Assembly: GCF_007997295.1 (NCBI RefSeq)
Contig: NZ_VORY01000001.1
Location: forward strand, 1 to 64,000
Reading direction: 5' to 3'
Length of the DNA: 64,000 nucleotides
From: Gillisia hiemivivida
GTDB lineage: Bacteria; Bacteroidota; Bacteroidia; Flavobacteriales; Flavobacteriaceae
Position 1 is the first letter of the stretch; the number at the start of each line of letters is the position of its first letter. Below, one piece after another: positions 27,653-43,235 of the stretch. The translations under genes and the position numbers were made by a program. The notes under the pieces were generated by a model that ran no database searches, was not told where the DNA came from, and worked only from the letters and a program-made list of their open reading frames with translations.

Positions 27653-27770
27653 ATGAGAAAAATGGAGTTTCTTTTAGCTTCTTTTGCTTTCTTATATCTT
27701 GATAATAAACACTTTAACTAAATTTAATTTTCTTTAAGCAAGATTTGTTTTACCTTAGAACAGTGATTTG

Positions 27771-27789
27771 TTGTACCTATGTTGTACCC
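27771..27789. promoter_or_regulatory. Integrase arm-type repeat, left copy
   Basis: TTGTACCTATGTTGTACCC consists of two TTGTACC units ten bases apart. An identical copy lies at 62,694-62,712, inside the other element end and in the same orientation. The paired units flanking the core sites fit arm-type binding sites of a tyrosine recombinase. Confidence 0.55.
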
Positions 27790-27800
27790 AATTTTTGCTT

Positions 27801-29009
27801 ATGGCGACAATTAAAACTGTTCTAAGAAAGAAAAAATTATCTGATGGTTCGTTCCCTATTTGTTTACGCGTAACCAAAGACAGAAAAACCAAATATTTCT
27901 CTACGATATTTAGGTCTATGCCATATGAATGGAATGAAAGTTCTGGTGATTTCAGAAAGAATGCTGAAAATTACATTCAAAGTAATCGGTTATTACTAAA
28001 GCTAAAATCTCAGGCCTTTAAAGTTTACACTGCTTTGGAAATTGAAAATAAGCATTTCAGCCTAGATGATTTTGAAAATTGTTTTCGTGAAGAGAAAAAT
28101 CCAGTTCAAAATAATATTTTTAATTTTTGGAAAGAGATTGTAGATGAAATGAATACTGCTGGCAGAACTGGAAATGCGCGAGTTTATAAAGATGTACTAC
28201 ATGTTGTAAAGCTTTTTCATAGAAGTCATCATCTACTCTTCAAGGATGTTACTCCCAGCTTTCTAAATAAATTTGAAGTTTTCTGCAGGGCTCGCGGTGG
28301 AACCGATGGCGGTATTGCGATAAAAATGAGAGCCATAAGAGCTATTTATAATTTTGCAATACAACGAAATTTAGCCAAAGAAGAAGCATATCCATTTAAG
28401 GATTATAAAATTTCTAAACTAAAAGGTAAAGGATTGAAAAAAGCACTCAGCTTTCCCGAAGTATTGGAAATTATTAAACTGGATCTGAATAAGTATCCGC
28501 ATTTAACAAACTGTAAGCATTATTTCACATTCAGTTTTTATACAAGAGGTATGAACTTCACCGACATGCTTTGGCTTGAATGGAAAAATGTAACTGAAGA
28601 TCGTATCTATTATACACGTTCAAAAACCAAAGGAAATTTTACAATTAAAATCCTCCCACCTGTTCGTGATATCCTCAACTATTATAAAGAGAGATCTTTA
28701 AACACGAAATATGTATTTCCACTACTTTTAAGCGATGACCTTACTTATGCCCAGGTTGCAAATAGAAAGCACAAAACTTTACAACGGTACAATAAAGAAT
28801 TAAAAGAAATTGCCCAAATATGCAATATCAATAAACCTCTTACTAGTTATGTCGCGAGGCACAGTTTTGCAAATTCCTTAAAGCAAAAAGGAGTGGCTAC
28901 AGATGTAATTAGTGAATCTATGGGACATCAGAATTTAGCTATTACCCAGGCTTATCTTAAAGAACTTGATAATTGTGTTTTGGATGATGCTAGTGAGTTG
29001 TTACTGTAG
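27801..29009 (+). CDS. Tyrosine site-specific integrase
   Basis: A 402-residue phage-type integrase of the Bacteroidota class. It has an N-terminal arm-binding domain (TVLRKKKLSDGSFPICLRV), a SAM-like core-binding domain (about residues 100-200) and a catalytic domain with the first Arg in FYTRGMNFTDMLWL, the Arg of SYVARHSFAN, the His of SMGHQNLAITQ and the Tyr nucleophile in QAYLKEL. It should catalyse integration and excision at the tRNA att site. I chose the ATG of MATIKTVL; an upstream TTG in frame lies inside the arm repeat. It reads away from the left att site. Confidence 0.93.
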   Translation: MATIKTVLRKKKLSDGSFPICLRVTKDRKTKYFSTIFRSMPYEWNESSGDFRKNAENYIQSNRLLLKLKSQAFKVYTALEIENKHFSLDDFENCFREEKNPVQNNIFNFWKEIVDEMNTAGRTGNARVYKDVLHVVKLFHRSHHLLFKDVTPSFLNKFEVFCRARGGTDGGIAIKMRAIRAIYNFAIQRNLAKEEAYPFKDYKISKLKGKGLKKALSFPEVLEIIKLDLNKYPHLTNCKHYFTFSFYTRGMNFTDMLWLEWKNVTEDRIYYTRSKTKGNFTIKILPPVRDILNYYKERSLNTKYVFPLLLSDDLTYAQVANRKHKTLQRYNKELKEIAQICNINKPLTSYVARHSFANSLKQKGVATDVISESMGHQNLAITQAYLKELDNCVLDDASELLL

Positions 29010-29149: not shown

Positions 29150-30259
29150 TTACTGTAGATTATAAATAATTTGGGTTTTTACTTTATAAAACTCTAATTT
29201 ATGGCAAACTCGTCCACGGAGGATACTAGGATGTATTCCTATATATTTTGCATGATCAATTAGGTTAGCGTCTTTTAATGGCTCTAGACCATATTTTTCA
29301 AAGTACTGACTCCATTCAGAATCAGAAATCAAAAACTCCTCTGCAAACCTGTTTGCTTCTTTTTCTTCAATTGAATTTTTGTAATTTTTTTCTTCATTCT
29401 TGGAATCTAAATCTATAAAGCGACACTCATTATTGTTAACCAAGTGCTTAAATATATGTCCTAATTCGTGAAAAAGCGTAAACGCAAAATTATCTACTCG
29501 CTTATGTCGTATCGACATTCCTATTGCTGGGTTGCCGTTACTCCAAAATGAAATTCCATCAACAGGTGATTTAGTCCCCTTTTTTTGAATAATTAACTTA
29601 ATACCATATTCAGCGAGCAAATTTATAGAAGATTTTATGGTATCTTCATTCTCAGTAATAATCTCCTTCAATTTATGTATCAATACATTTTGACATGTAT
29701 AATTAAAATTTGGAACAAGAAACATACTAGCCTTATACTCTACTAATTTAGACCATCCTATTATATTGATAGGGTCAATTGCAAGCTTTGTAGATTTTCT
29801 GAATCGAGAAAAACTAGGTTCTGTTCGCATATTTGCTAGTTGTTCAAAATGTTCCACATCATAAATAGTCTTAATCAGTTTTACATCATCTATTGGATCT
29901 CCTTTCAGAATTTTTTCCTTTTTCAAAAAACTGTAAGCAATTTTATCCTTAATAAAGTTAAGTTGTTCAATCGCCTCTAATCTCTCACTATTCTTTGCCT
30001 TCATCCGTGCGGAATCCAGATCATAATTCTTCTGGGCTTCCATCCAAAAATCGGCATCAATTCCCAGAGCTTTCTCCAATAGAATAGCTAAATCAGCATT
30101 AAGGTTTCTCTTACTTTTAATAAACTCATTTAGTTGGCTTCTTTTAAAACCTATTATTTTTGCAAATTCTGATTGAGAAATATCAGAAGCATCTAATTCA
30201 TCCTTTAAAATTTCTCCTGGATGCGTAGCAATAAATGGCGTTAGGTCTGTTGCTTTCAT
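29150..30259 (-). CDS. higA: HigA-like antitoxin fused to an ImmA/IrrE metallopeptidase
   Basis: A 369-residue protein. Residues 10-70 form a XRE-type helix-turn-helix (HPGEILKDELDASDISQSEF is the usual HigA opening). Residues about 180-300 form an ImmA/IrrE zinc peptidase with HELGH at 264-268. It should neutralise the HigB toxin and repress its own promoter. The fused protease could link antitoxin loss to stress. It follows the toxin gene by two bases (reverse order compared with most toxin-antitoxin pairs, as in higBA). Close relatives are common in mobile elements. Confidence 0.88.
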   Translation of the reverse strand: MKATDLTPFIATHPGEILKDELDASDISQSEFAKIIGFKRSQLNEFIKSKRNLNADLAILLEKALGIDADFWMEAQKNYDLDSARMKAKNSERLEAIEQLNFIKDKIAYSFLKKEKILKGDPIDDVKLIKTIYDVEHFEQLANMRTEPSFSRFRKSTKLAIDPINIIGWSKLVEYKASMFLVPNFNYTCQNVLIHKLKEIITENEDTIKSSINLLAEYGIKLIIQKKGTKSPVDGISFWSNGNPAIGMSIRHKRVDNFAFTLFHELGHIFKHLVNNNECRFIDLDSKNEEKNYKNSIEEKEANRFAEEFLISDSEWSQYFEKYGLEPLKDANLIDHAKYIGIHPSILRGRVCHKLEFYKVKTQIIYNLQ

Positions 30260-30261
30260 AA

Positions 30262-30582
30262 TTACTCGTAGTGTTTACTGAGTTCTTCTAATTCAAAAAT
30301 ATCAATTTGTAGGGAGCCTTTTTCTGAAGCTATTTCGTTAAAAATAATTCTATATTGCTTATTCACCCATACAGCGCTTTTACCGCTTAGATTGCCCTTT
30401 TTCTTTTCGTATCGTAAACTCTTCAACTGATAAAGTTGTTCAACTCGGGTAATGGATTTTAGCGTATTAACAGTTTTTATATACTGTTTAACTAAAGCAG
30501 GGTTAGATTTATACTCTTTATGTTTATTAGTTTTCCCTTCATAAAGGTCTTCTAAATAATCTTTTAAAAATAAAATAGTCAT
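30262..30582 (-). CDS. higB: HigB/RelE-type toxin
   Basis: A 106-residue toxin of the RelE/HigB fold. The C-terminal half shows the fold's core, SLRYEKKKGNLSGKSAVWVN and YRIIFNEI, with basic residues suited to mRNA cleavage on the ribosome. It is first in the operon with HigA-ImmA two bases downstream. The promoter is overlaid by a perfect inverted repeat. The role is probably stabilisation of the element, possibly phage defence. Confidence 0.85.
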   Translation of the reverse strand: MTILFLKDYLEDLYEGKTNKHKEYKSNPALVKQYIKTVNTLKSITRVEQLYQLKSLRYEKKKGNLSGKSAVWVNKQYRIIFNEIASEKGSLQIDIFELEELSKHYE

Positions 30583-31322: not shown

Positions 31323-32024
31323 CTAAGACAATTTATTTTCCAATTTATCTTTCCACTTTTTCCAAGTAGGCATTATAGTGTCCAATGTTCTATAAAATTC
31401 TTTGTTGTGATTGGCAACCACCAAATGACACATTTCGTGCACTAAAACGTATTCAATACACTTTGAGGATGCTTTTATAATTTCTGGATTCAATACAACT
31501 TTATCTATGGTATTACAACTCCCCCAGCGCTTTGTCATTCTTCTAATTTCAATGGTCGGCATTTTAAAATCATACTCTTTAAATCTGGAATGCGCTTCAA
31601 TAGCTAACGAATTAAACTTTTTTTCAGCATGAGAATAATACCAGTGTGCTAAAAGTTTTTTGACAAGCTCTTGTTTTATTTCGTCCTTACAGACTACTTC
31701 TAGTTTTCCAGCTTTAAGTTTTACCTGATTTTCTGAACCTAGACTGACTTTCAATAGATAGGATTTACCTAAATAGTGATGTGTTTCGCCAGAAACATAG
31801 TTTCGCTTTGGTGTTCTTGGTAAAAACTGCTCAAAGTATGCTTGTTGTTTTACAATCCATTTGGCGCGTTTTTCTACTTTTTGCTCAATATCTTGAAATG
31901 AACTATTGTTTGGAGCTATTATATGTACCGAACTATCTGGATGCACTTCTATTCCCAATGTTTTCCGATTGGATCTTTTGAGTTCATAAAAAATCTCCTG
32001 ACTCCCGTATTGTATTTTATTCAT
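31323..32024 (-). CDS. YgjP/SprT-like zinc metallopeptidase (DUF45)
   Basis: A 233-residue protein with the zinc motif VLVHEMCHLV and the downstream His/Glu region HNKEFYRTLDTIMPTWKKWK. The preceding RRMTKRWGSCNTIDKVVLN (KWGSC-type strip) is diagnostic for the M48-related YgjP/DUF45 family. These genes very often end type I restriction operons. The start codon overlaps the hsdR stop by one base. Its role in restriction is not established; it may process HsdR or protein adducts on DNA. Confidence 0.88.
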   Translation of the reverse strand: MNKIQYGSQEIFYELKRSNRKTLGIEVHPDSSVHIIAPNNSSFQDIEQKVEKRAKWIVKQQAYFEQFLPRTPKRNYVSGETHHYLGKSYLLKVSLGSENQVKLKAGKLEVVCKDEIKQELVKKLLAHWYYSHAEKKFNSLAIEAHSRFKEYDFKMPTIEIRRMTKRWGSCNTIDKVVLNPEIIKASSKCIEYVLVHEMCHLVVANHNKEFYRTLDTIMPTWKKWKDKLENKLS

Positions 32025-35000
32025 CAGAAATTATTTTTAGCTACTCTCAAGCATTTAATTAAGATTGAATCAATTTCATCAAAGCTTATCTCAATACCTA
32101 ATTGCGTTCTTTTCCCAATTAGATAATCTTCTATTTCATTCTCCATTCGGTTTTGAACATCTACATTCTTTTTCCAGTCTGTTATGATAAGATTGTTAAC
32201 GATGGCTTCAATTTCAAGTCCTGCTTGGGCCACTTTATTTTTACTGATTTCTTTGTCTAGCTTTTTGTTTAAAACTTCATTTAGCGCTCCATAAAAAGCA
32301 CGTGCTCTTGGCTTGTTTTGCAGGCCTTCAGGAATTCCATCCTGATAGCCATTTGCCAGATCTTCACGTGTTTTTCGCATAGCCTCTAAATATTCTTTTT
32401 CTGTGAGTCTTCCGTCGTAAAAATCATTTATGGTTTTTTCAATGAGTTGGGAGAACTTTTTGTAAAAAGCTTCATCTTTTTCCATATTCTCAGTAATCAC
32501 CCTTTTCATCTGGTTGGCGATAAAATCAGCTTTTGAAGCTGCTGTTTTACCATAGGCTTCCAAGGTTTCTTCCACCATATTTTTATCAAATATGTTTATT
32601 TCGCTAGCCATCACTTGTACTTCGTCTGCATCTATGTATGTGTCCAGTAGTTTACGAACCCTTGGTTCATATTCTTTGTAGGAAATTTTTTCTGCATATC
32701 TAAACTGAACTGATAAACGCAAACTCTGAAATTTCTTCAATTCATTTTTATAAAAACCAATTTGCTCTAAATTGAATTCAACATAAAAATCATCTGATGC
32801 CAATGCAGTTTGTAATAGCCTGGCAAAGGCAGAAACGCGGTCATAGAATTGATCTCGCAAGTCTTTTTCTGAAATATGCCTTTCTAAAGCTTCAATATCG
32901 TTTCTATTATAAACTCCTTTAAAAATGTCCCAAACTTCGGCATGACGTACAGGAAGTTTTCGTATTTCATCTTTAATATCTACAACAGTGTTTTTCAAAT
33001 CCTCTTCATCAAAATCTTCTAAAGCACTATATTCTGTTAAGGCTTCATCTAACTTTCCTAATACTCCCACATAATCAATGATGTGACCGTATTCCTTTCC
33101 GGTAAATAATCTGTTTACACGCGCTATGGCTTGGAGTAAATTATGAGCTATTAAAGGCTTAGCTAAGTAGAGGACTGTGTTTCGAGGTGCATCAAATCCT
33201 GTGAGCAGTTTGCTTACAACTATTATAATTTCAACTTCATTGCTTTTTTCTTTAAAACGGTCGATGACATAGCTTTCATAAGCTTCTTGATCGTTAAAGC
33301 GCTCCAATATTCTTTCCCAATATTTTCTGGATTCACTGGTGCTTTCCGACCAAACATCATCATTATTTTGTCTGCTATCGGGTGGTGTGAAAACAACTCT
33401 AGTATTTATTTTTAGCGCGTCATTGGATTGCGTTTCAAAATACTTTTGATATTTAATCGCAGTATCAATTTTTGGAACTGCAAGTTGGGCTTTAAAGCCT
33501 GTGCCTTTCCAGTTTTCAGAAAAATGCTTGGAAATATCAAAAGCGATTTCCTCAATAACATTGTCTGACTCGTAAATTTTTGCAATGGTGGCAAACTTCT
33601 TTTTTAAATCTTTTTGTGCTTCTTCGCTTAGTGGTGCTGCCAAGCGTTCAAAACCTTTATCGATTTGTTTTTTATTGATGCTTAGTTTTGCCGATCGCCC
33701 TTCATACAATAACGGAAGTACCGCACCATCTTTTACCGCTTGGTCTATGGTATATTTATGAATAAAGCCACCAAATTTCTTAGACGTACTTTTTTGGGAT
33801 TTCATTAATGGTGTTCCTGTAAAACCAATGTAGGATGCATTGGGAACAATACGTTTCATATTGGCGTGAGCCGAGCCATATTGGCTACGGTGACTCTCAT
33901 CTACCAACACAAAAATATTTTGCGATTTATCTTTAAAAGTAGCACGCTTTGTGGCAATTTCAAATTTGTCGATAATGGTTGTGATGATCTCGTTGCCTTT
34001 ATCTTGTAATAGCTCAATTAAATCGTTACCGCTTTTAGCTTTTTTTACATGTTTACCACAATTGACAAAGGTTTTAAAAATTTGTTTGTCAAGGCTTATT
34101 CTATCGGTTACGATAATAATTCTTGGGGATTCTATAGAAGTATCTAATGCTAATGCTTTGGATAACATAACCATTGTTAAAGATTTACCGCTACCTGTGG
34201 TGTGCCATATTACACCACCTTGACGATTGCCTTCCTTATTGCGTGATTTTACACGCTGGATGGTATCCTGAACTGCGAAATACTGTTGGTAACGACATAT
34301 CTTTTTATCGGGACCATCAAATACAATGTATTTATAGGTTAGATCTAATAAGCGTTTTGGACTGCATAATGCATAAATACCTTTGTCCTGCTCGGTGACT
34401 AAACGATCTTCCGAAGGAGTTTGATTTATTTTCTTTTTTAAAAGTTTGGTGACTTCCTTTTCTACATCTTCTTTCCAAAATGACCAAAATTTAGCTGCTG
34501 TACCTGTTGCGCCATATTTGACTTCGTTTGGATGCACTGCTAATAATAGTTGCGCATAATAAAATAATTTGGGAATTCCCTCCTCTTCTCTTTGATTTCT
34601 AATGTTCTGCGAAATGGCTTCATCTAAAGATTCGTTTTTATCTCTGCGCTTGTTTTCAATAACCACAAACGGAATTCCATTTACAAAGAGCACAATATCT
34701 GGACGACGTTTTCCTTTACCGCCTTCTACTTCAAATTCTTCTGCAACGTGAAATACATTATTTTCTGGGTTTTTCCAGTCGATATAATTTACGGTGTATG
34801 CCTTGCGGTCGCCTTGGACGGTTTCGTTGAAACTTTTTCCTAAAGTAATTAAATCATAAACACGCTCGTTGGTTTGCACCAAGCCTTCGTTGGGCACATT
34901 TTTTAAAGCATTGACAGCTCCTTGAATACTTCCAGTAGAAAATTTATAGGCTTCGTTTTTATAGGTAAACGTATTGATTTTTGACAACTGCTGCGCCAGA

Positions 35001-35152
35001 ATATCATCTAAAATAACGTTGGTATACATTTCGCCACGTGCTTCAAATACCTGGTCTTCGCACAAATATTGCCATCCCATTTTTTGAAGTAAGCTAATCG
35101 CTGGTTTTTGTGAGTCGTCGTATTCCGTGTAGTTTGTTGACATAAATTTCAA
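32024..35152 (-). CDS. hsdR: Type I restriction endonuclease subunit R
   Basis: A 1,042-residue motor-nuclease. The N-terminal PD-(D/E)xK nuclease shows RRPDIVLFVNGIPFVVIENK. Helicase motifs follow: HTTGSGKSLTM (Walker A), LVDESHRSQYG (DEAD-like), IGFTGTPLMK (motif III), VSKLLTGFDAPRNTVLY and LLQAIARVNRLF (motifs V-VI). The C-terminal helical part binds the methylase complex. It translocates and cuts DNA lacking the host modification. It is separated from hsdS by the three-gene CBASS cassette and one small gene, an unusual split. A 193-base gap precedes it. Confidence 0.96.
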   Translation of the reverse strand: MKFMSTNYTEYDDSQKPAISLLQKMGWQYLCEDQVFEARGEMYTNVILDDILAQQLSKINTFTYKNEAYKFSTGSIQGAVNALKNVPNEGLVQTNERVYDLITLGKSFNETVQGDRKAYTVNYIDWKNPENNVFHVAEEFEVEGGKGKRRPDIVLFVNGIPFVVIENKRRDKNESLDEAISQNIRNQREEEGIPKLFYYAQLLLAVHPNEVKYGATGTAAKFWSFWKEDVEKEVTKLLKKKINQTPSEDRLVTEQDKGIYALCSPKRLLDLTYKYIVFDGPDKKICRYQQYFAVQDTIQRVKSRNKEGNRQGGVIWHTTGSGKSLTMVMLSKALALDTSIESPRIIIVTDRISLDKQIFKTFVNCGKHVKKAKSGNDLIELLQDKGNEIITTIIDKFEIATKRATFKDKSQNIFVLVDESHRSQYGSAHANMKRIVPNASYIGFTGTPLMKSQKSTSKKFGGFIHKYTIDQAVKDGAVLPLLYEGRSAKLSINKKQIDKGFERLAAPLSEEAQKDLKKKFATIAKIYESDNVIEEIAFDISKHFSENWKGTGFKAQLAVPKIDTAIKYQKYFETQSNDALKINTRVVFTPPDSRQNNDDVWSESTSESRKYWERILERFNDQEAYESYVIDRFKEKSNEVEIIIVVSKLLTGFDAPRNTVLYLAKPLIAHNLLQAIARVNRLFTGKEYGHIIDYVGVLGKLDEALTEYSALEDFDEEDLKNTVVDIKDEIRKLPVRHAEVWDIFKGVYNRNDIEALERHISEKDLRDQFYDRVSAFARLLQTALASDDFYVEFNLEQIGFYKNELKKFQSLRLSVQFRYAEKISYKEYEPRVRKLLDTYIDADEVQVMASEINIFDKNMVEETLEAYGKTAASKADFIANQMKRVITENMEKDEAFYKKFSQLIEKTINDFYDGRLTEKEYLEAMRKTREDLANGYQDGIPEGLQNKPRARAFYGALNEVLNKKLDKEISKNKVAQAGLEIEAIVNNLIITDWKKNVDVQNRMENEIEDYLIGKRTQLGIEISFDEIDSILIKCLRVAKNNF

Positions 35153-35345
35153 ACTTTATTAACAGATGAAGGCTATCCTTTATCTTTATATATTTTTTAT
35201 TAGAAACTTTTCTTTTCTCTATAAGACAAATATTGATAAATAACTACAGAGTGTCTTATAGAATGTCCTATAGAATTACTTTAAGGTTTTATAAGTTCTC
35301 CATCTTCTTTCTCCAACTCCTTCTATCTAACCCTCTTCTATCATT

Positions 35346-35828
35346 TTAGCTAATTGTCTTTTGATTGTTGTCTTTAACTTGTTTATGCGGTTTAAATGGA
35401 TGTTCCCATCTACCAGTAATAAGATATAATTCATAATAGACGAACCACTCTAAAGTCCAAGGGATTATAGTATTATATATATTGTGTTTTTTACTATCCC
35501 AGTACAGATTGTCTGTTTCTGGATGATACAAGCATAAACTTTCTCCCTTTGGATACATATGAATATCATCGTGAAATTCGATATGTGGCTCTATAACGTG
35601 AATGTCAGGTGAGTTTTTACCGCTATAAGTTATACTAAAACTATAAGGTTTAGAGTACCTAGTTGGCTTATAATTTCCTTTGCAGTATAATCCATTTTTG
35701 TCTATTGAACAGGTCAAAAAATCATAACGCGATTCAACAAACTTTTTCTCTCTAATAAGTATTGCTTTTATTAGAAGATTTTGCTTTCTTAGTTTGAATC
35801 TGTTTTTATGATATTTCTTAACCCCCAT
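35346..35828 (-). CDS. CBASS E2-like conjugating protein (type II-short)
   Basis: A 160-residue E2-fold protein. IHMYPKGESLCLYHPETDNLYW carries the likely catalytic Cys99 in the E2-type loop seen in CBASS-associated E2 proteins. It is preceded by a beta-sheet core (YSFSITYSG, PDIHVIEPHIEFHDD). No E1 or JAB domain gene is nearby, which defines the type II-short architecture. Family knowledge: such E2 proteins bind the cyclase C-terminal Gly and prime or tether it. Its start overlaps the cyclase 3' end by 11 bases. Confidence 0.8.
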   Translation of the reverse strand: MGVKKYHKNRFKLRKQNLLIKAILIREKKFVESRYDFLTCSIDKNGLYCKGNYKPTRYSKPYSFSITYSGKNSPDIHVIEPHIEFHDDIHMYPKGESLCLYHPETDNLYWDSKKHNIYNTIIPWTLEWFVYYELYLITGRWEHPFKPHKQVKDNNQKTIS

Positions 35829-36828
35829 AATTTGTATGTGGTTTATGTTTCACTCCTTCTGAATTTTCAGAAATTAACCCTGATTTTTGTGAATAAGCCG
35901 TACCGCTTAAAACACTTTTCGATATTGCTCTTAAAGCCGCTTCCTTCGCATCAATATCTTCATCTTCTCCCTCAGGAAATCTATCACCTAAATATTTCCT
36001 CCAAAGTTTACTAGATTCAAGCTGATTATCTGATTCTATCGCCTTTTTGGCATCATCAATAAAATCAGCAATTGCATCTAAAAAATTTGATTTCTGGTCT
36101 GTCGTAAGTTTTCTACAGACATCATCATAAGGTGTAACCGGCATTTCTAAAAACCAAGTGGAATCTATCTGATCCTTAATTTTTTTAATAACCTCATATA
36201 AAGCTATATCATCTCTGTCATTAGATTTTAAATGCTCTACAGCCCAAATACTAAATGCAAGACCTGATGGGAATTTACCTTTCGTATTATCTGACCAAGC
36301 CTTTAAATATCTCACAAGACGTTTCAATTGACGTAAATTAGGATGATTGTTGAACCATATATAAAAATCCTTGGGATCGCTTTCATTCCAGCCATTATTG
36401 CTTGTAGCAAGATTAGGATGGCTGTGCTCATCTTTATTAAAATGATAAACCGGTAAATCTATATGAAAGTCACCTTTATAAATTACTCTGATACATTTTC
36501 CTTTTTTTGAAGTCGTAGTTGAAGTGATATTTTCAACAGCTTTATATACCTGATCCATAACTGTAGATGCAGTAACATCCGGGTCTACTTCGTCAAAATA
36601 TACTCCTAAGTCTAGATCGCAAGTATCATCTTTAGTGCGAATCATTGTTCCCATTTTGTAAGAACCTTGAATCCATGTACCTTTAAAATTGTATTTTGAT
36701 TTTTCTTTAAAATGTTCAATTATTTTGGTTTTTATATTCTCACGTGCAGTTTTTATTTTCTCTACCTTAGAAGGCGTAACTTCTAGTTTTTCATTAAAGT
36801 TTAAAAACAGTTTATTGCAATTTGCCAT
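35818..36828 (-). CDS. CBASS CD-NTase (cGAS/DncV-like cyclic nucleotide synthase)
   Basis: A 336-residue nucleotidyltransferase. Catalytic features are the GS motif GSYKMGT (G55-S56), the two metal Asp in CDLDLGVYF (D71, D73) and the third Asp in FHIDLPVYHF (D124). The C-terminal helical domain ends with LWRKYLGDRFPEG. The last residues are NYGG, a Gly-Gly tail suited to E2-mediated conjugation. On phage infection it should make a cyclic oligonucleotide that activates CapV. I chose MANCNKLF, 25 bases after the capV stop; the longer frame overlaps capV with residues unlike a CD-NTase. Confidence 0.88.
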   Translation of the reverse strand: MANCNKLFLNFNEKLEVTPSKVEKIKTARENIKTKIIEHFKEKSKYNFKGTWIQGSYKMGTMIRTKDDTCDLDLGVYFDEVDPDVTASTVMDQVYKAVENITSTTTSKKGKCIRVIYKGDFHIDLPVYHFNKDEHSHPNLATSNNGWNESDPKDFYIWFNNHPNLRQLKRLVRYLKAWSDNTKGKFPSGLAFSIWAVEHLKSNDRDDIALYEVIKKIKDQIDSTWFLEMPVTPYDDVCRKLTTDQKSNFLDAIADFIDDAKKAIESDNQLESSKLWRKYLGDRFPEGEDEDIDAKEAALRAISKSVLSGTAYSQKSGLISENSEGVKHKPHTNYGG

Positions 36829-36853
36829 ATTATTTATTTTTAAAGGTTTTGTT

Positions 36854-37903
36854 TTAGTTAGTTGATGGATAACTATTCCACCGACTGCTATTTTTAATAC
36901 TTGATACAATAGATTGACCATAATTTTGGTATTTATTACTTGCCATACTCATAAGTTTCTGAAGTTTCATCTTATTATTAGAGTCCATTGCCAGCTTAAA
37001 TGTGCTTGGCAACTCTTCCTGTATTCTATAGTATTTAAATACTTTATTTTTGATACCTCCTGTTCCTCCTGCGTAAATAGTACACAGGTCGTGCACGTGC
37101 TGTGCCTGTGCTTGCATCATTAAATCTATGATCCTAATTTTAGACATCCAGTAGATTTTCCCAAAAGCTTTATTAAATGTCCCAAACAAAATTTTGGATC
37201 TTGTTTCGTTATAAGTGGTATAACCTGTTCCAATTGAGTATAACTCAATATCCTCATAATTAACACCAAGGGCACAATGAGCTTCAGTTAAACCTATTAA
37301 AGATGGATTATTGGCAAAAACACCCCCATCGATCCTCATGAAAAATTCACGTTTTTCACCTTTGTCATTCTCATAATTATTTGAGTAAGGATCAAAATAA
37401 GTAGGAGCTGCTGCCGTAGCCATTGCAATCTGATAGGCTGGAATATGCTTATCAATATGATAAGACTCTTTGTGGGGTGTTTTGAAAACCTTTGGCTTTG
37501 CATTTATGAGATCATAGCCAGTAATGCAAACACGAGTTTTTAGGTCATTTATAAGGGGTGTTTTACCATTAAAGCTCTCAGAAAACTTCTCTCTTACTAA
37601 ATTTTCAAGATTGTTATTGCTATATTTTGCTCGTCGGACACCGAATCTCCCATTAAAAATAAGAGGTTTTGAAAAAATTGATTTTCTATTTTCTACATAT
37701 AGGTTTTGTGCCTCTTTTGCAGGAATTTTAAGTGCCAAAGCCAAGGCTAATATACCTCCTGTTGAAGTGCCACAAATCAAATCGAAATGATCAGCCAAAT
37801 GGCCACCTAAATCCGCTTCTAGTTCTGATAGAAACCTTGCGGGATAAACACCTCTAATTCCACCCCCATCAATACTTAATATTTTAAATTTTTTTACTGC
37901 CAT
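36854..37903 (-). CDS. capV: CBASS effector, patatin-like phospholipase CapV
   Basis: A 349-residue patatin-like phospholipase. The oxyanion hole is DGGGIRGVYPA (residues 12-22), the nucleophile S47 is in CGTSTGG and the catalytic D192 is in RIDGGVFANNP. No membrane segment is present. On binding the cyclic nucleotide made by the neighbouring cyclase it should hydrolyse inner-membrane phospholipids and kill the infected cell. It leads the three-gene CBASS cassette and lies 61 bases after the small gene that follows hsdS. Confidence 0.9.
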   Translation of the reverse strand: MAVKKFKILSIDGGGIRGVYPARFLSELEADLGGHLADHFDLICGTSTGGILALALALKIPAKEAQNLYVENRKSIFSKPLIFNGRFGVRRAKYSNNNLENLVREKFSESFNGKTPLINDLKTRVCITGYDLINAKPKVFKTPHKESYHIDKHIPAYQIAMATAAAPTYFDPYSNNYENDKGEKREFFMRIDGGVFANNPSLIGLTEAHCALGVNYEDIELYSIGTGYTTYNETRSKILFGTFNKAFGKIYWMSKIRIIDLMMQAQAQHVHDLCTIYAGGTGGIKNKVFKYYRIQEELPSTFKLAMDSNNKMKLQKLMSMASNKYQNYGQSIVSSIKNSSRWNSYPSTN

Positions 37904-37964
37904 CCTATTTTTAAATTATCACACATTTTTCTCTAATTTACAATCGTAGTAATAAGAGTTAATT

Positions 37965-38261
37965 TTAATTTAAGCTTGCTCTTTCCTGAGCCACGGCCTG
38001 TTTGTATTCTATTTCGTTATTGTATTTATGTAGTTCTGTAATTTTTCCTTTTACACGGTCAGTATTAGTATTGTCATATGCGCATACCACTCTCAAATAG
38101 ACTTCATTGTTCAAATTAATATTCGTAACTATATCCTTAGCTTTTTCCACCTTGCCGTTCAATGCTTTGTGGTATTCTGAATATAATTGCTGAATATCTT
38201 CATCAAATTCAGCTCTTTGTTTAGGTGTTAAATTTTTAATAATCTCAAATTCTTTTTCCAT
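37965..38261 (-). CDS. Small helical protein of the defence operon (unknown)
   Basis: A 98-residue protein without a recognised domain. It is predicted mostly helical and charged (EFEIIKNLTPKQRAEFDEDI; later NEIEYKQAVAQERASLN). It sits between hsdS and capV, 10 bases after the hsdS stop with the start I chose (MEKEFEII); a longer frame overlaps hsdS by 23 bases. The position would fit an accessory of either the RM system or CBASS. No function can be assigned. Confidence 0.6.
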   Translation of the reverse strand: MEKEFEIIKNLTPKQRAEFDEDIQQLYSEYHKALNGKVEKAKDIVTNINLNNEVYLRVVCAYDNTNTDRVKGKITELHKYNNEIEYKQAVAQERASLN

Positions 38262-38271
38262 ATTCTTTGTT

Positions 38272-39600
38272 TTAAATCTTAATCCGTTTCTCACCAGTCA
38301 ATAACTGCTGCATTAAACCTTTCTTTTGATTTTTTAATTGTTCCAGTTTTATCTTTAGTTGTAAAATCTCTTTAGTACAGTTATCAAGAATATTGGATAT
38401 TTTTTGTTGCTCTGAAAGCAGTGGAAGGGGAATCAAGACCTTTTTCAAACCGCTTGAGTAAATATGAACTACAGAATGACCTTGACCTATTTGGAAAAAT
38501 TGCTTTTTAACTAAATCACTATTAAGTAAATAACCCAGATATCGAGAATCTTGATTGTATTGTTTTAAAATAATAATATCACCACCTGCATAAGCTGTTT
38601 CTAAACCTAAATAAACTATAGACTTACCAATATCTTCTAATTTTTCTCCAGATCCTGCAAATAAGATGTCTCCATATTTAATAGGATTACTACTTTTAGC
38701 TGAGTCGGGATTGATCTTGGATATAAATGAATATGTACTGTAATTATATTTTGTATATATTTCTGCATACCTAACACTGGGTAAACCATCAAACCCATTT
38801 TCTAAAATATCCTTTTTAGCTATTCCTTTACCTCTAGAAAATACACCTAGTTCATCTAAAGATTTCACATTCCATTTTTCATCAAACCCAGGAAACCGCT
38901 TCTTCCCAGTTAACAACTGCTGCATTAAGCCTTTTTTAAGTGCTTGTTTTTGGGTAATAAGCTTTTCTTGTGCTACTATGGCTTTGTCCCAAGTGTTAAG
39001 GATACTGGCTATTTTTTGTTGCTCTGGAAGTGGTGGAACTGCAATAGTAAAATTATTAATATCCTTTGCTGAAATATGAGGAATACCTGAACTGGTCTTT
39101 ATTGAATCCACATACCGAATAAAGTTATTACTAGAAACCCAATGAAAAAGAAAAGACTGTGACATTGTTATCAAAGTCCTTATTCTCGCTACACGCTGGA
39201 CTAGTAATAGAGGTAAGAATTCTTTACCGACTATACTATAATTTCTACCAACTAGAGAACCGTCCATAGAAATTACAATATCTCCATCCTCTAATAAATA
39301 TTTAGCTAGGTTTAAATTATTGGAATTCTCCCAAAACATCTCATTCTTTTCATCAAAACGCAGATTACCTCTTGTGATATTTATCCCTCGACATAATCTT
39401 GTGCCTCTATTTTCCAGATTAAATTCATTGCTTTTAAAAGCAAAACCATTTAACTGATTTACATAATTCTTTATGCTTGAATAAATCCAATCCTCTGGAA
39501 TCAAACCCAATTTGGTCTGTTTGTACCCAACCTTTTCTTCTACCAAACCTGTGCTGAGCGTTGTCGAAGTAGCAACCTCATCTTGTGTGTGTTTACTCAT
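38272..39600 (-). CDS. hsdS: Type I restriction-modification specificity subunit
   Basis: A 442-residue HsdS with two target-recognition domains (about residues 30-180 and 230-390), each followed by a conserved coiled coil. The repeats LPEQQKIASILNTWDKAI and LSEQQKISNILDNCTKEI, and the two copies of KKGLMQQLLTGKKRF/KRI, mark the circularly repeated spacers. Each TRD reads one half of a bipartite target. It overlaps the preceding small gene by eight bases. A second, half-size S gene lies upstream of hsdM. Confidence 0.94.
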   Translation of the reverse strand: MSKHTQDEVATSTTLSTGLVEEKVGYKQTKLGLIPEDWIYSSIKNYVNQLNGFAFKSNEFNLENRGTRLCRGINITRGNLRFDEKNEMFWENSNNLNLAKYLLEDGDIVISMDGSLVGRNYSIVGKEFLPLLLVQRVARIRTLITMSQSFLFHWVSSNNFIRYVDSIKTSSGIPHISAKDINNFTIAVPPLPEQQKIASILNTWDKAIVAQEKLITQKQALKKGLMQQLLTGKKRFPGFDEKWNVKSLDELGVFSRGKGIAKKDILENGFDGLPSVRYAEIYTKYNYSTYSFISKINPDSAKSSNPIKYGDILFAGSGEKLEDIGKSIVYLGLETAYAGGDIIILKQYNQDSRYLGYLLNSDLVKKQFFQIGQGHSVVHIYSSGLKKVLIPLPLLSEQQKISNILDNCTKEILQLKIKLEQLKNQKKGLMQQLLTGEKRIKI

Positions 39601-39943
39601 AATGCTCGGTGTAAAGCGGATCGTCGGTAAGGTCGGTTATAATACTAGACCTATAAAAATCAAACCATTGGTTAAATAGTTTCCAACTAAGCGCAGGAAA
39701 TGTACTTTCGTCTGTGCATTGTCCAAAGAGTTCGTTGAGAAAAATGTTTTTCCAGTATTTTTTGAGCTCTTTTTTAGGGTCGTCTAGAAAGAGCTCATCT
39801 TCTAGCAAATAACTGTTATGCTCATCTCGATCTCCTGCATTAGTTTGTGGTAAATCTGGAAATAGGGCATTGCTCCAATCGTGAAATGGCTGTTTTGGTA
39901 TTACCATTAATGCGCTTCTATTTATGGTAGGATATATTATCAT
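39593..39943 (-). CDS. Hypothetical protein in the RM operon
   Basis: A 116-residue acidic protein, unknown to me by function. It is rich in aromatic residues (WSNALFPDLPQ; LSWKLFNQWFDFYRSSII) and looks globular and cytoplasmic. Its ATG directly follows the rhuM stop (TAAATG), and its end overlaps hsdS by eight bases, so it is tightly coupled to both. Such proteins occur as passengers near plasmid and RM genes, but I cannot assign a family with confidence. Confidence 0.6.
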   Translation of the reverse strand: MIIYPTINRSALMVIPKQPFHDWSNALFPDLPQTNAGDRDEHNSYLLEDELFLDDPKKELKKYWKNIFLNELFGQCTDESTFPALSWKLFNQWFDFYRSSIITDLTDDPLYTEHYE

Positions 39944-40972
39944 TTAGTTTTTGTTTTTATTGTTTGGTAATAAGCTATCAAAATCACTATTGAAATCAAT
40001 ATCTTGGTTTACTCTAAATGTTTCAAACATTTTTTCAGCTAAATTTTTAGCAATTTTACTACTTATATTTCCAGCACTTTTTAAAACCTTATAATCGTTA
40101 AACACTAAAAAGGCATCTAGCTTTTCTATCCAATCCGTCATTTGCATAGGAATATTTCGTTTTGCTTGATTTTCTGCATAATCCAAATACATGACAACAA
40201 TACGGTTAAGCGCATCCAACTCATTTTCTTGTAAATAATTTTTTGCAATGCTAACATCACTTTTCAATATTTTACCTTTAGGACTGTTTTTCCAATGGGT
40301 TAATCCCATACCTGGTTTGTTGACATCTGCCCTTTTTGAAATAAGTTCTGCTGCTGTAGCGCCAGTAATTGCCCAATGCAGTTTATTCTGAACAGTTTGG
40401 TAAAATGTTTTGGTGGTTTCACTTTTAGCATCATAATCTATACTACATTGCGCATAGATATCTGTAATCTTTTGATAAAAACGACGTTCTGAAGCACGTA
40501 TTTCTCTAATACGTTCCAATAGTTCATCAAAATAATCTCTACCAAACTGCTTACCTTGTTTTAAACGTTCATCATCAAGCACAAAGCCTTTTATAATATA
40601 GTCGCGTAAAGTTTTAGTTGCCCAAATCCTAAACTGCGTGGCTTGTTTAGAGTTAACCCTATAGCCTACCGAAATAATGGCATCGAGATTATAGAACTGC
40701 GTGTTATAATTTTTACCATCCCCGGCAGTTATTCGAAATTTTCGAATAACTGAATCCTCATCTAATTCTCCGCTTTTAAATACCTCTTTCAGATGATAAT
40801 TTATGGTATTCACCTCCACACCAAAAAGTGATGCCATTTTCTTTTGTGAAAGCCAGAAGGTCTCATCTTCATACAATACCTCAATCGTACTTTTTTCTAA
40901 TGCAGTTTCATAGAACAAGATTTGCAATTTATTAAACTGGTCTTGAGTTTTATCAATTTTACTCATATCCAA
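39944..40972 (-). CDS. RhuM-family protein
   Basis: A 342-residue RhuM-like protein. The N-terminal region shows LYEDETFWLSQKKMASLFGV, a winged-helix-like segment, and KNYNTQFYNLDAIISVGYRV with FRIWATKTLRDYIIKGFVLD, the RhuM signature. RhuM proteins were named from a Salmonella pathogenicity island and are common between hsdM and hsdS of type I systems; their role is unknown. A DNA-binding or toxin-like function has been proposed. The start overlaps the hsdM stop by 8 or 14 bases depending on which of two Met is used. Confidence 0.88.
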   Translation of the reverse strand: MDMSKIDKTQDQFNKLQILFYETALEKSTIEVLYEDETFWLSQKKMASLFGVEVNTINYHLKEVFKSGELDEDSVIRKFRITAGDGKNYNTQFYNLDAIISVGYRVNSKQATQFRIWATKTLRDYIIKGFVLDDERLKQGKQFGRDYFDELLERIREIRASERRFYQKITDIYAQCSIDYDAKSETTKTFYQTVQNKLHWAITGATAAELISKRADVNKPGMGLTHWKNSPKGKILKSDVSIAKNYLQENELDALNRIVVMYLDYAENQAKRNIPMQMTDWIEKLDAFLVFNDYKVLKSAGNISSKIAKNLAEKMFETFRVNQDIDFNSDFDSLLPNNKNKN

Positions 40973-42476
40973 GTTCTTTTAAGTGTTTATTCATTTCTGC
41001 GCGTACTCCTACCAACTCCGCTTCTAATTCTTCTATATTTTGCTGCACTTCTGCTATATTCACTGGTTCTTCTTCTTCAAAAGTATCTACATAGCGCGGA
41101 ATGTTAAGGTTGTAATCATTCTCTGCCACTTCTTTTGGTTTTACAACCGAACTATATTTCTCAATAGTTTCAAAATCTTTATAGGTAGCAACAATTTTAT
41201 CAATGTCCTGTGTTCTCAGAACATTCTGCTTTTTACCGTCTTCAAAATCTTTACTGGCATCTATGAATAGTATATTCTTTGTGGTTTTTGCTTTGTTGAA
41301 AATAAGAATTGCAGCAGGAATTCCTGTACCATAGAACAAGTTAGTGGGCAAACCAATGACTGCTTCCAGTAAATTTTCTTCAATTAGTTTTTGACGAATT
41401 TTTTGTTCTGCGCTTCCGCGGAAAAGCACTCCGTGTGGCACAATAACACCAACTTTCCCCTTTGGTGCCGTCGTTTCGATCATATGGAGAATAAAGGCGT
41501 AATCTCCTTTAGATTTTGGTGGAATACCACGAAGAAAACGCTTATAGCGATCGGCTTCAGCATTCTCATGTCCCCATTTATCAAGACTAAAAGGTGGATT
41601 TGCCACAACAATATCAAACTTCATTAAAGCATCACCTTCAATTAGTTTAGGGTTATTAATGGTGTCACACCATTCAATTTGTGCAGAATCCATTTTATGC
41701 AAAAAGCAATTCATTTTGCTCAATGCCCAGGTATCACCATTACTTTCCTGTCCGTATATGGCAAAATTATTTGTTGGCTTACCCTGTGCATCTTTAGTTT
41801 CTTCTGCAACTTTGATCAATAGAGATCCTGATCCACAAGTAGGATCAAAGATGCGGTCACCTTCTTTAGGTGATACTAGTTTTGCTAATAATCCAGAAAC
41901 TTCTTTTGGAGTGAAGAACTCCCCTCCTTTTTTACCCGCTCCAGACGCAAATTTTTCTAAGAGGAACATATAGGCTTCTCCAAGAATATCTTGCTTCCCT
42001 TCCCAAAGCGATGGACGGAAGTCTAACTCTGGTTTTGCAAAGTCATTAATCAAGTTTTTGAGGCGTCGGTTACGGTCTTTAGTTTGCCCTAATTTATCTG
42101 AATTAAAACTGATGTTTCTAAATACTCCATCTAGTTTTTCAATGTTGTACTCTTCTATTTTAGCAAATATTGTGTCGATTTTCTCACCTATATCAGTGTC
42201 ATTTCTATGTTCATAGATATAATCGAAAGAACAATTGGGAGGCAACACGAATCGCTCACGTTTTAGTTTTCTTTGAATAAGCTCTTCGTCATCTCCATAG
42301 CGTTCTTTAAGTTCATTATAATGGTCTTTCCAAACATCACTTAAGTATTTGATGAACATAAAAACTAATATATAGTTCTTATATTCTGATGAATCAAATG
42401 CACCTCTGAAAGTGTCACAAGCATTCCATAATGCTGCATTTATTTGATCTTGTGATGGTTTTGTTTTACTTGACAT
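40959..42476 (-). CDS. hsdM: Type I restriction-modification DNA methyltransferase
   Basis: A 505-residue N6-adenine methylase. The N-terminal HsdM domain (residues 1-150) precedes the catalytic core with FDPTCGSGSLLIK (SAM binding) and VVANPPFSLDKW (catalytic NPPF). A C-terminal coiled region (EEPVNIAEVQQNIEELEAEL) contacts HsdS. It methylates the two half-sites that HsdS recognises. It starts one base after the half-size S gene and overlaps rhuM. Confidence 0.96.
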   Translation of the reverse strand: MSSKTKPSQDQINAALWNACDTFRGAFDSSEYKNYILVFMFIKYLSDVWKDHYNELKERYGDDEELIQRKLKRERFVLPPNCSFDYIYEHRNDTDIGEKIDTIFAKIEEYNIEKLDGVFRNISFNSDKLGQTKDRNRRLKNLINDFAKPELDFRPSLWEGKQDILGEAYMFLLEKFASGAGKKGGEFFTPKEVSGLLAKLVSPKEGDRIFDPTCGSGSLLIKVAEETKDAQGKPTNNFAIYGQESNGDTWALSKMNCFLHKMDSAQIEWCDTINNPKLIEGDALMKFDIVVANPPFSLDKWGHENAEADRYKRFLRGIPPKSKGDYAFILHMIETTAPKGKVGVIVPHGVLFRGSAEQKIRQKLIEENLLEAVIGLPTNLFYGTGIPAAILIFNKAKTTKNILFIDASKDFEDGKKQNVLRTQDIDKIVATYKDFETIEKYSSVVKPKEVAENDYNLNIPRYVDTFEEEEPVNIAEVQQNIEELEAELVGVRAEMNKHLKELGYE

Positions 42477-42477
42477 T

Positions 42478-43065
42478 TTATAATTTGTTTAAAAGTTGCT
42501 TGGTGGTTAATTTATTTTTTAGATCCAATATTTCACTACTTATTGCCAACTCCTTAGTATGAAGATCTGCAATAGTAGCAATTTTAGTTTGTATTTCTAA
42601 TGATGGAAGAACTATTGGTGTTTCTTCTAAAGTTGTTTTATTTATACTGGTGTTGTAGGTTCCGGATTCTTTGGTTTTGAAATAATTTTGAACATTTTTT
42701 TGATTGATATACCAAGCAACAAAGTCTGGGTTAGCCAAGTTCTTGTTTACCTTAAGTACAAACATAGCAGACGAAGCTATAGTTGGGATATCATCAGTAC
42801 TCTTAAATACAGTTGCAAAATTGTTAGCTCCTTTTGCTACAAAAAGGACATCCCCCACTTCTAAGTAGTATTTGCTTTTTATCTTATTATTGTTAATCAG
42901 GTAACAATCATCACCTATAGCCGTATAATTATCTTCAAAGTCTTTTAGTTGTATCACACGAACACCTCCATTCTGGACGTGTTTGATCTTACCTCTAAAA
43001 GAGTATCCAGAGGAAAGTCCTTGGTTAACTATAATTGATTCTAAAGTAACTATTTTATTTTGCAT
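42478..43065 (-). CDS. Half-size HsdS (single target-recognition domain)
   Basis: A 195-residue S-type protein with one TRD (about residues 5-150; GKIKHVQNGGVRVIQLKDF, YLEVGDVLFVAKGANNFATV) and one C-terminal helix (LPSLEIQTKIATIADLHTKE). It is the first gene of the operon. Half-S proteins can dimerise to form a symmetrical specificity unit, or swap with a full HsdS to change the recognised sequence. I chose MQNKIVTLES, 28 bases past a -7 box, over a longer frame that would begin upstream of the promoter. Confidence 0.85.
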   Translation of the reverse strand: MQNKIVTLESIIVNQGLSSGYSFRGKIKHVQNGGVRVIQLKDFEDNYTAIGDDCYLINNNKIKSKYYLEVGDVLFVAKGANNFATVFKSTDDIPTIASSAMFVLKVNKNLANPDFVAWYINQKNVQNYFKTKESGTYNTSINKTTLEETPIVLPSLEIQTKIATIADLHTKELAISSEILDLKNKLTTKQLLNKL

Positions 43066-43092
43066 ATTTATAAATACATAATTGCTACGATG

Positions 43093-43100
43093 CAAACATA
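43093..43100 (-). promoter_or_regulatory. Probable main promoter of the RM-CBASS operon
   Basis: On the minus strand TATGTTTG matches TAnnTTTG and lies 28 bases before the half-S start. No other gap above 200 bases occurs in the following eleven genes, so much of the operon may depend on it. Confidence 0.55.
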
Positions 43101-43235
43101 ATAAAATTAAAACAATAAGCAATATTATTATTCATAATCATTACGTTGCAAATTTATAAAGCAAAAAGTCCAGACAAAAATATGTGTCTGGACTTTTAAA
43201 TTGAACTTAGTTATCGGTGCTGATGTACTTAATAG

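Follow-up and report, generated by a model that had tools for sequence, protein, structure and literature searches.

A second defense system inside a restriction-modification operon

In Gillisia hiemivivida, a type I restriction-modification (RM) operon encloses a complete cyclic-oligonucleotide-based anti-phage signaling system (CBASS) between its hsdS and hsdR genes. The window, by which we mean the whole stretch of DNA analyzed, comprises positions 1 to 64,000 of NZ_VORY01000001.1 (GCF_007997295.1), and the locus occupies the piece 31,323-43,065. The initial annotation had listed eleven minus-strand genes here, and the list of open reading frames (ORFs) confirms their order and spacing, including the larger gaps of 61 bp between U98 and capV and 193 bp between the E2 gene and hsdR. 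Nine of the eleven are identified by Pfam and PADLOC (the E2 gene by PADLOC only):

42478-43122, minus strand: half-S, the first gene, a half-size HsdS with one Methylase_S unit (PF01420, 2.6e-10); TTG start, with an ATG at 43065
40959-42476, minus strand: hsdM (PF02384, N6_Mtase, 1.8e-109; PF12161, 5.5e-29)
39944-40972, minus strand: rhuM, cargo of the hsdM-hsdS gap, PADLOC candidate PDC-S05 (PF13310, 1.9e-114; PDLC04851, 3.7e-153)
39593-39943, minus strand: U116, after rhuM, without family
38272-39600, minus strand: hsdS, with two Methylase_S units (PF01420, 9.8e-26, in two stretches)
37965-38261, minus strand: U98, a small gene of the hsdS-hsdR gap, without a family passing the cut-off; ATG start, extended to 38294 from a GTG start
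36854-37903, minus strand: capV, the patatin-like phospholipase effector of CBASS (PF01734, 7.2e-28; PDLC00758, 1.6e-95)
35818-36921 from the listed ATG, minus strand: cGAS/DncV-like nucleotidyltransferase (CD-NTase) of the SMODS/DncV-like kind (PF21654, 5.6e-20; PF18144, 5e-19; PDLC00774, 9.4e-115)
35346-35828, minus strand: E2-like conjugating enzyme of CBASS, with candidate Cys99 (PDLC00862, 5.7e-54)
32024-35152, minus strand: hsdR (PF18766, SWI2_SNF2, 9e-82; PF04313, HSDR_N, 9.8e-43); TTG start, with an ATG at 35143
31323-32024, minus strand: ygjP-like (DUF45) metallopeptidase (PF01863, 7.2e-55)

Both systems are present with intact motifs. The single locus holds an HsdM with its catalytic motifs, a two-unit HsdS and an HsdR with nuclease and translocase motifs (RRPD..IENK, TGSGKS and DESH), and the YgjP-like peptidase shows HEMCH. 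Within the cassette, which is a second complete defense on the same strand, CD-NTase, effector and E2 are adjacent: CapV displays DGGGIRG, GTSTG and DGG, and the CD-NTase displays GSYKMG and DLD and ends in ..HTNYGG, the C-terminal glycine of this Gly-Gly presumably being the conjugation residue. The listed ATG of the CD-NTase gene gives a 68 bp overlap with capV; its true start is probably the alternative ATG at 36828, as residue 32 is where the best PADLOC model sets in. The E2 protein has no Pfam match, and the cassette contains no E1 or JAB gene (there is no further minus-strand ORF of at least 60 aa from capV to hsdR; the rest of the genome was not searched). Judged by these genes and motifs, the cassette matches type II CBASS in its E2-only form, with which it has in common the C-terminal glycine of the CD-NTase, the lone E2 and the effector, and from which it differs in lying inside an RM operon. 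We take this form to be the one labeled 'type II-short'; CBASS with E2 but without E1 is reportedly the subject of Yan et al. 2024.

Cargo bays in the operon across relatives

The constant frame of half-S, hsdM, hsdS, hsdR and ygjP recurs in relatives, with the hsdM-hsdS and hsdS-hsdR gaps (hereafter the bays) both variable; because the arrangement recurs, the layout is beyond chance. We examined 122 hsdR loci, of which 80 around hsdR relatives formed a first sample and 42 (12 + 20 + 10) from family- and phylum-wide genome draws a second, hsdR being detected at E <= 1e-150 in 14/299 genomes of the family draw and 32/395 of the phylum draw, the own genome included. Matches at this threshold outside the sample are G444, which is the same as locus L007, and G415 and G244, which are cut by contig ends. 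An hsdR was called in 121 loci (the exception is L055) and a complete hsdS-hsdR stretch in 96, from which removal of the near-copies L061, L038 and L149 leaves 93 distinct complete loci, including L135 from the own genome; L019, also removed as a near-copy, was not among the complete loci. Genes of relatives were called as simple longest ORFs and named by matching them to profiles of the window proteins or to cargo already assigned by Pfam and PADLOC; the cyclases of L137, L158, L159 and L161 and the SLFN label given to L006 depend on such similarity, with no library scan of their own. Of the 90 loci with hsdM (three near-copies included), 73 have a half-size HsdS upstream of it, and the hsdS-hsdR distance is at least 300 bp in 81/93 loci and below 300 bp in 12/93.

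The bays display a broad range of cargo, which includes CBASS of several kinds, the pyrimidine cyclase system for anti-phage resistance (Pycsar), TIR-SLOG, a UG5-nitrilase-type reverse transcriptase and an OLD/AriA-like ATPase, and further SLFN_AlbA_2, Shedu, Argonaute, a Ser/Thr kinase, YhcG and DUF3800, with RhuM or Fic often found in the hsdM-hsdS gap; for the first sample these identities come from Pfam and PADLOC scans of part of 183 proteins and are not a full census. A number of the scanned bay proteins match no family. The initial annotation had named a lack of recurring defense genes in this slot of other genomes as one ground for refuting it, and counting shows that they do recur: a CBASS or Pycsar cyclase lies in a bay of 15/93 loci, namely in 12 hsdS-hsdR gaps (L005, L008, L020, L031, L036, L037, L128, L135 of the own genome, L137, L154, L159 and L163) and 3 hsdM-hsdS gaps (L013, L158 and L161). 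A two-gene cassette of PycC-like and PycTM-like genes recurs in the hsdS-hsdR gap of L128, L187 and L135. As separate observations, the PycC of L031 is in pieces, and in L184 (11002-14209) the hsdR that follows a CapV-CDN-E2 cassette appears split into two open frames.

The immediate neighbors of the operon served as control flanks. Cyclases occur there in four loci (L049, a weak match, L053, L062 and L142), so that 15 loci over 307 kb of bays stand against 4 over 762 kb of flanks, a 9.3-fold density (binomial p 8e-6). This count is inflated, since six of its seven seeds were drawn from bay genes and match their own loci by construction; without each seed's own locus it becomes 12 vs 4 (7.4-fold, p 1.7e-4), and the window CD-NTase as a single seed finds 4 bay loci (L020, L036, L159 and L163) vs 1 in the flanks (L142; p 0.026). 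Orientation separates the two compartments further: 277/281 bay genes of at least 100 aa (187/191 + 90/90) point with the operon, vs 353/645 flank genes of that size (161/276 + 192/369), a bias that is expected if cargo must be read from the operon transcript.

Two small genes of the window lack an assigned family. U116 matches no Pfam or PADLOC family and has homologs in 6 other loci; its AlphaFold2 model is unusable, with a predicted local distance difference test score (pLDDT) of 38. U98, which likewise has no Pfam or PADLOC family passing the cut-off, is found in six of the hsdS-hsdR gaps searched (window, L005, L050, L132, L135 and L164), directly after hsdS in 4/6, and its L135 copy has a weak match to CARF_HEPN (E 0.0059). 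A model of U98 from three sequences (pLDDT 81) predicts a fold of helix-helix-three strands-helix, with no fold match in PDB at E up to 0.001.

Cargo turnover and a scar among close kin

In a FastTree phylogeny of HsdR, the window groups with L002 and L003, next with L004-L007 and next with L008, L009 and L020. The nine readable hsdS-hsdR gaps of this ten-member clade hold the following cargo:

CBASS with CapV: window, L020
SLFN: L002
SLFN-HATPase: L003, L006
Reverse transcriptase: L004
Pycsar: L005
TIR-SLOG: L007
CBASS-1TM: L008

L002 and L003, whose HsdR proteins are 94% and 92% identical to that of the window, thus both carry other cargo. DNA similarity to L002-L008 and L020 ends sharply at the start of hsdR (window 35134-35160), and that to L002-L008, though not to L020, ends at the end of hsdM (40950-40975); between these edges lie islands of similarity in hsdS, a short piece of rhuM and, in some loci, U116. 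L020, from Mesonia, shares with the window 74% DNA identity from half-S to U116, running through rhuM, and 78% from the CD-NTase to E2 gene in the same places; CapV is shared too, with capV matching less well. RhuM is 86% identical to that of L020 vs 45-48% to those of seven other close kin compared, which is a sign of exchange.

The gap before hsdR retains a trace of earlier cargo:

35180-35385, minus strand: scar, the degraded 3' end of an SLFN_AlbA_2 gene once carried as cargo, together with the DNA that follows, matching L003 and L006

The scar is 77.8% identical to L003:9524-9744 over 221 columns (E 1.5e-45) and 75.7% identical over 140 to the SLFN_AlbA_2 gene of L006. Its reading frame contains one stop, differs from that of E2 and underlies the last E2 codons; L020 lacks such a stretch, and only about a dozen bases separate the end of its E2 gene from hsdR. 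By this DNA match, the 193-bp gap is largely the remnant of an earlier SLFN_AlbA_2 gene, and replacement of SLFN cargo by CBASS in the window lineage is the simplest account. A separate hsdR promoter was considered as the reason for the gap and rejected, because most of the stretch is the older cargo-gene remnant. Short repeated motifs (CTATCGGACAT; GTTCCCCAAAA) are also seen between cargo and hsdR in L003 (9630-10000), L002 (9750-10000) and L008 (9900-10000) and are possibly remains of SLFN-type cargo. No convincing target duplications or att repeats were found around the bay or the operon in 24.5-48.5 kb; the repeats detected there correspond to the two halves of HsdS and to a 23-bp pair of 87% identity.

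Distribution and phylogeny of the CD-NTase

The window CD-NTase has matches in 24/395 phylum genomes (E <= 1e-3) and 13/395 class genomes (E <= 1e-30), the own genome included in each; these amount to 33 distinct genomes besides the own, and surroundings were examined for the 21 better matches. In three of the 21 (G022, G765 and G734) the gene lies between hsdS and hsdR, and in G142 it comes after hsdS in an RM operon whose genes are arranged differently. The G734 locus (L187, G734:C80:110000-129900) features a CD-NTase and Fic in its hsdM-hsdS gap and CapV, a CD-NTase and the PycC-like and PycTM-like genes in its hsdS-hsdR gap. Of the other 12, weaker matches, two fall within the hsdR sample: that of G150 (L163) is nested, and that of G085 (L142) lies beside the RM operon, outside it and on the opposite strand. 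A tree of 27 CD-NTases has nested copies interleaved with free ones and implies 7 gains or losses, at least 4 of them forced by well-supported branches; cassettes have therefore entered or left such gaps several times, and a single lineage of RM-bound CD-NTases is ruled out by the same tree.

The region upstream of half-S

Two operator-like sites precede the first gene of the operon:

43131-43150, minus strand: site 1, TGCAACGTAATGATTATGAA, with 2 mismatches to TRCATMRTANNNATTATGYA
43075-43094, minus strand: site 2, TGCATCGTAGCAATTATGTA, overlapping the end of the TATGTTTG box

They are copies of TRCATMRTA-N3-ATTATGYA, at 43150-43131 with 2 mismatches and at 43094-43075 with none, and such paired sites precede half-S in the window and in 7/7 close kin with upstream DNA available (L002-L006, L008 and L020), with at most 2 mismatches per copy. 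Single matches to the 16-bp core (at most 1 mismatch) are common in the genome (56 vs 50 for a reversed control); it is the pairing and place of the sites, not their single occurrence, that stand out. Pairs of 20-bp sites that agree in no fewer than 16 positions occur before half-S in 21/69 loci vs 11/409 control upstream regions, a difference favored by the GC content of 0.39 in the controls vs 0.29; composition-matched shuffles yield such a pair in 3.1%, and not all 21 are clean operator-like pairs.

HsdS proteins of close kin are 34-65% identical while the sites persist, and RhuM is absent from L135, which makes half-S the best candidate reader of the sites and a candidate autoregulator at its own promoter. 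Half-S identity follows HsdM identity, so that co-variation of half-S and operator is inseparable from common descent. A scan with what we take to be the Bacteroidetes-type promoter pattern gave one match on the operon strand in 31-44 kb, just before half-S (43178-43149). No terminator-like site was found on the minus strand in 32.6-41.8 kb, which is weak evidence.

Genomic setting and a second operon

Of two genus relatives, G1018 shares the chromosome with the window up to 27529 and again from 62764 (tRNA-Met), which places the operon in a variable region. At one side of this region lies an integrase:

27768-29009: tyrosine integrase

G1019 shares with the window both this integrase and the DUF4143 gene (matching from 43147, just upstream of half-S), with about 11.8 kb between them in which no gene matches the RM profiles. 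The content of 27529-62764 is thus absent or replaced in G1018 and G1019, and the RM-CBASS unit is itself cargo. Between the integrase and the RM operon, window 29150-30582 encodes a HigB-like toxin and an antitoxin-like gene of the helix-turn-helix/IrrE type. The own genome contains a second RM operon of the family (L135, G000:C23:226500-243500), whose HsdR is 40% identical over the matched part. Its hsdS-hsdR gap holds U98 together with two Pycsar-like genes, one PycC-like (323 aa) and one PycTM-like (175 aa), and its half-S, 26% identical to that of the window, is preceded by a different site pair.

A proposed RM chassis with exchangeable defense cassettes

We posit that this type I RM operon is a chassis with cargo bays that exchange defense cassettes, here a CBASS that would be co-transcribed and layered with restriction, a reading to which we assign a probability of about 0.82. 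The initial annotation had offered an insertion hotspot between hsdS and hsdR as one explanation of the nesting, and this is well supported by the recurrence, the turnover of cargo among kin, the sharp homology breaks and the scar. Both bays are predicted to take in and exchange cassettes, nearly always in the direction of the operon, likely through homologous recombination between related operons across their hsdM, hsdS and hsdR tracts; in the second bay of the window, a complete CBASS would have displaced an SLFN_AlbA_2 gene, whose 3' end now makes up the greater part of the 193-bp gap. The other explanation of the initial annotation was that CBASS may be expressed with RM, with abortive suicide as a putative backup when restriction fails; co-orientation and tight packing support such co-expression indirectly and make it likely, and the cassette is probably transcribed from a promoter before half-S, under the paired operator-like sites. 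From what is known of the families, the cassette should work alone biochemically: upon sensing of infection, the CD-NTase, regulated by E2, would synthesize a cyclic nucleotide, and CapV would disrupt the membrane. Since the two systems appear layered and co-expressed rather than physically coupled, restriction would act first and abortive death second.

Several points weigh against this reading. The leave-out counts (12 vs 4; 4 vs 1) are fairer than 15 vs 4, and the clustering of defense genes in general is reduced, yet not removed, by the flank control. Recombination as the route of exchange is inferred from sequence edges only. In 17/21 surroundings of the window-type CD-NTase, some of them cut by contig ends, no nearby gene matches the Hsd profiles, so window-type CBASS does not need RM. 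Matches to the Bacteroidetes-type promoter pattern are at chance level in the window (6 vs 6.6 expected), with 51 vs 53.2 expected for sigma-70 type matches; the match before half-S is therefore weak, and internal promoters, including in the 193-bp scar, are possible.

Among the other explanations, the one that fares best, although we consider it unlikely, makes the nested CBASS a guardian of the RM complex, set off whenever a phage inhibits or escapes restriction, in the manner of PrrC in EcoprrI. The co-orientation of bay genes and the cyclase systems in bays of 15/93 loci would suit such a guardian, and the logic of position is that of prrC inside ecoprrI (PMC12707154). Yet the bays are common to more than six kinds of cargo, the 17/21 CD-NTase relatives just mentioned are not beside RM by the profiles used, and the nested CD-NTases are not one lineage, from which no partner-specific interface is expected; the exchange of cargo itself argues against a partner-specific, PrrC-like link. 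We also know of no CBASS trigger that is RM inhibition. Somewhat less probable still is that nesting is a by-product of the dense packing of genes in defense islands, without selection for co-expression: the variable region that contains the operon does extend from an integrase to tRNA-Met, and cyclases also occur in the flanks of four relatives, but their density in the bays is 7.4 to 9.3 times that of the immediate flanks, and the near-uniform orientation of bay genes (277/281) is not that of flank genes (353/645). That RM and CBASS form an ancient composite inherited vertically as a whole, as the half-S to U116, CD-NTase to E2 and CapV stretches shared with Mesonia L020 might suggest, is the least probable of all, given the other cargo of the nearest HsdR kin L002 and L003, the position of L020 outside them on the HsdR tree, the SLFN scar present in the window and missing from L020, and the contrast in RhuM identity between L020 and the seven other close kin.

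The chassis reading admits a bolder extension, which we hold to be doubtful though less so than these alternatives. The RM operon family might be a self-regulated, plug-in immunity platform, in which half-S, no longer tied to restriction, would bind the paired promoter sites and any docked cassette, most notably a second-messenger suicide system like CBASS or Pycsar, would be switched together with restriction; half-S may also mark the sites through methylation with HsdM, and this genome would then hold two platforms with different operators and second messengers.

Comparison with known systems

Embedding of defenses in type I RM loci is already known from PrrC, RloF, TgvAB and DarTG2. The closest in layout is the RRDM island of enteropathogenic E. 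coli, with RptR, HsdM, HsdS, DarTG2, HsdR and an M48 peptidase (PMC12255303, 2025). As in the window, a defense cassette lies between hsdS and hsdR with a metallopeptidase gene downstream, and that report calls the hsdS-hsdR site a potential recombination hotspot, from other cargo; the comparison drawn on here covers the neighbors of RptR and is not a census of RM cargo. The RRDM cargo is the toxin-antitoxin system DarTG2, in contrast to the CBASS of the window. Its first gene, which encodes the small DNA-binding repressor RptR and has repeated sites in its promoter, resembles half-S in layout, but RptR has 79 aa and the first gene of the window is a half-size HsdS matching Methylase_S (PF01420), no search of the genome for RptR having been made.

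In Vibrio cholerae, TgvAB lies inside the type I RM of Vibrio pathogenicity island 2 (VPI-2), and a comparable case is cited from Campylobacter jejuni, where RloF is flanked by hsdR and hsdS (both from PMC11411939). TgvAB is, like the window CBASS, an independent second defense embedded in a type I RM cluster; unlike it, TgvAB is a type IV (GmrSD-like) restriction system without second-messenger signaling. PrrC, which becomes active when EcoprrI is inhibited, is like CapV an abortive effector encoded within a type I RM locus (PMC12707154), whereas no such link is expected for the CBASS of the window. Our literature searches, confined to open-licence PubMed Central, brought up neither a CBASS or Pycsar inside a type I RM nor a recurrent docking of these systems there.

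Implications

Isolated reports of embedded defenses become a countable pattern once CBASS and Pycsar are seen to recur within the RM operon. The arrangement also offers a genomic setting for asking if selection acts jointly on restriction and abortive infection that are layered and co-expressed. Finally, it yields a search rule, namely to inspect the hsdM-hsdS and hsdS-hsdR gaps of such operons, where bay proteins without a family are candidate new defenses.

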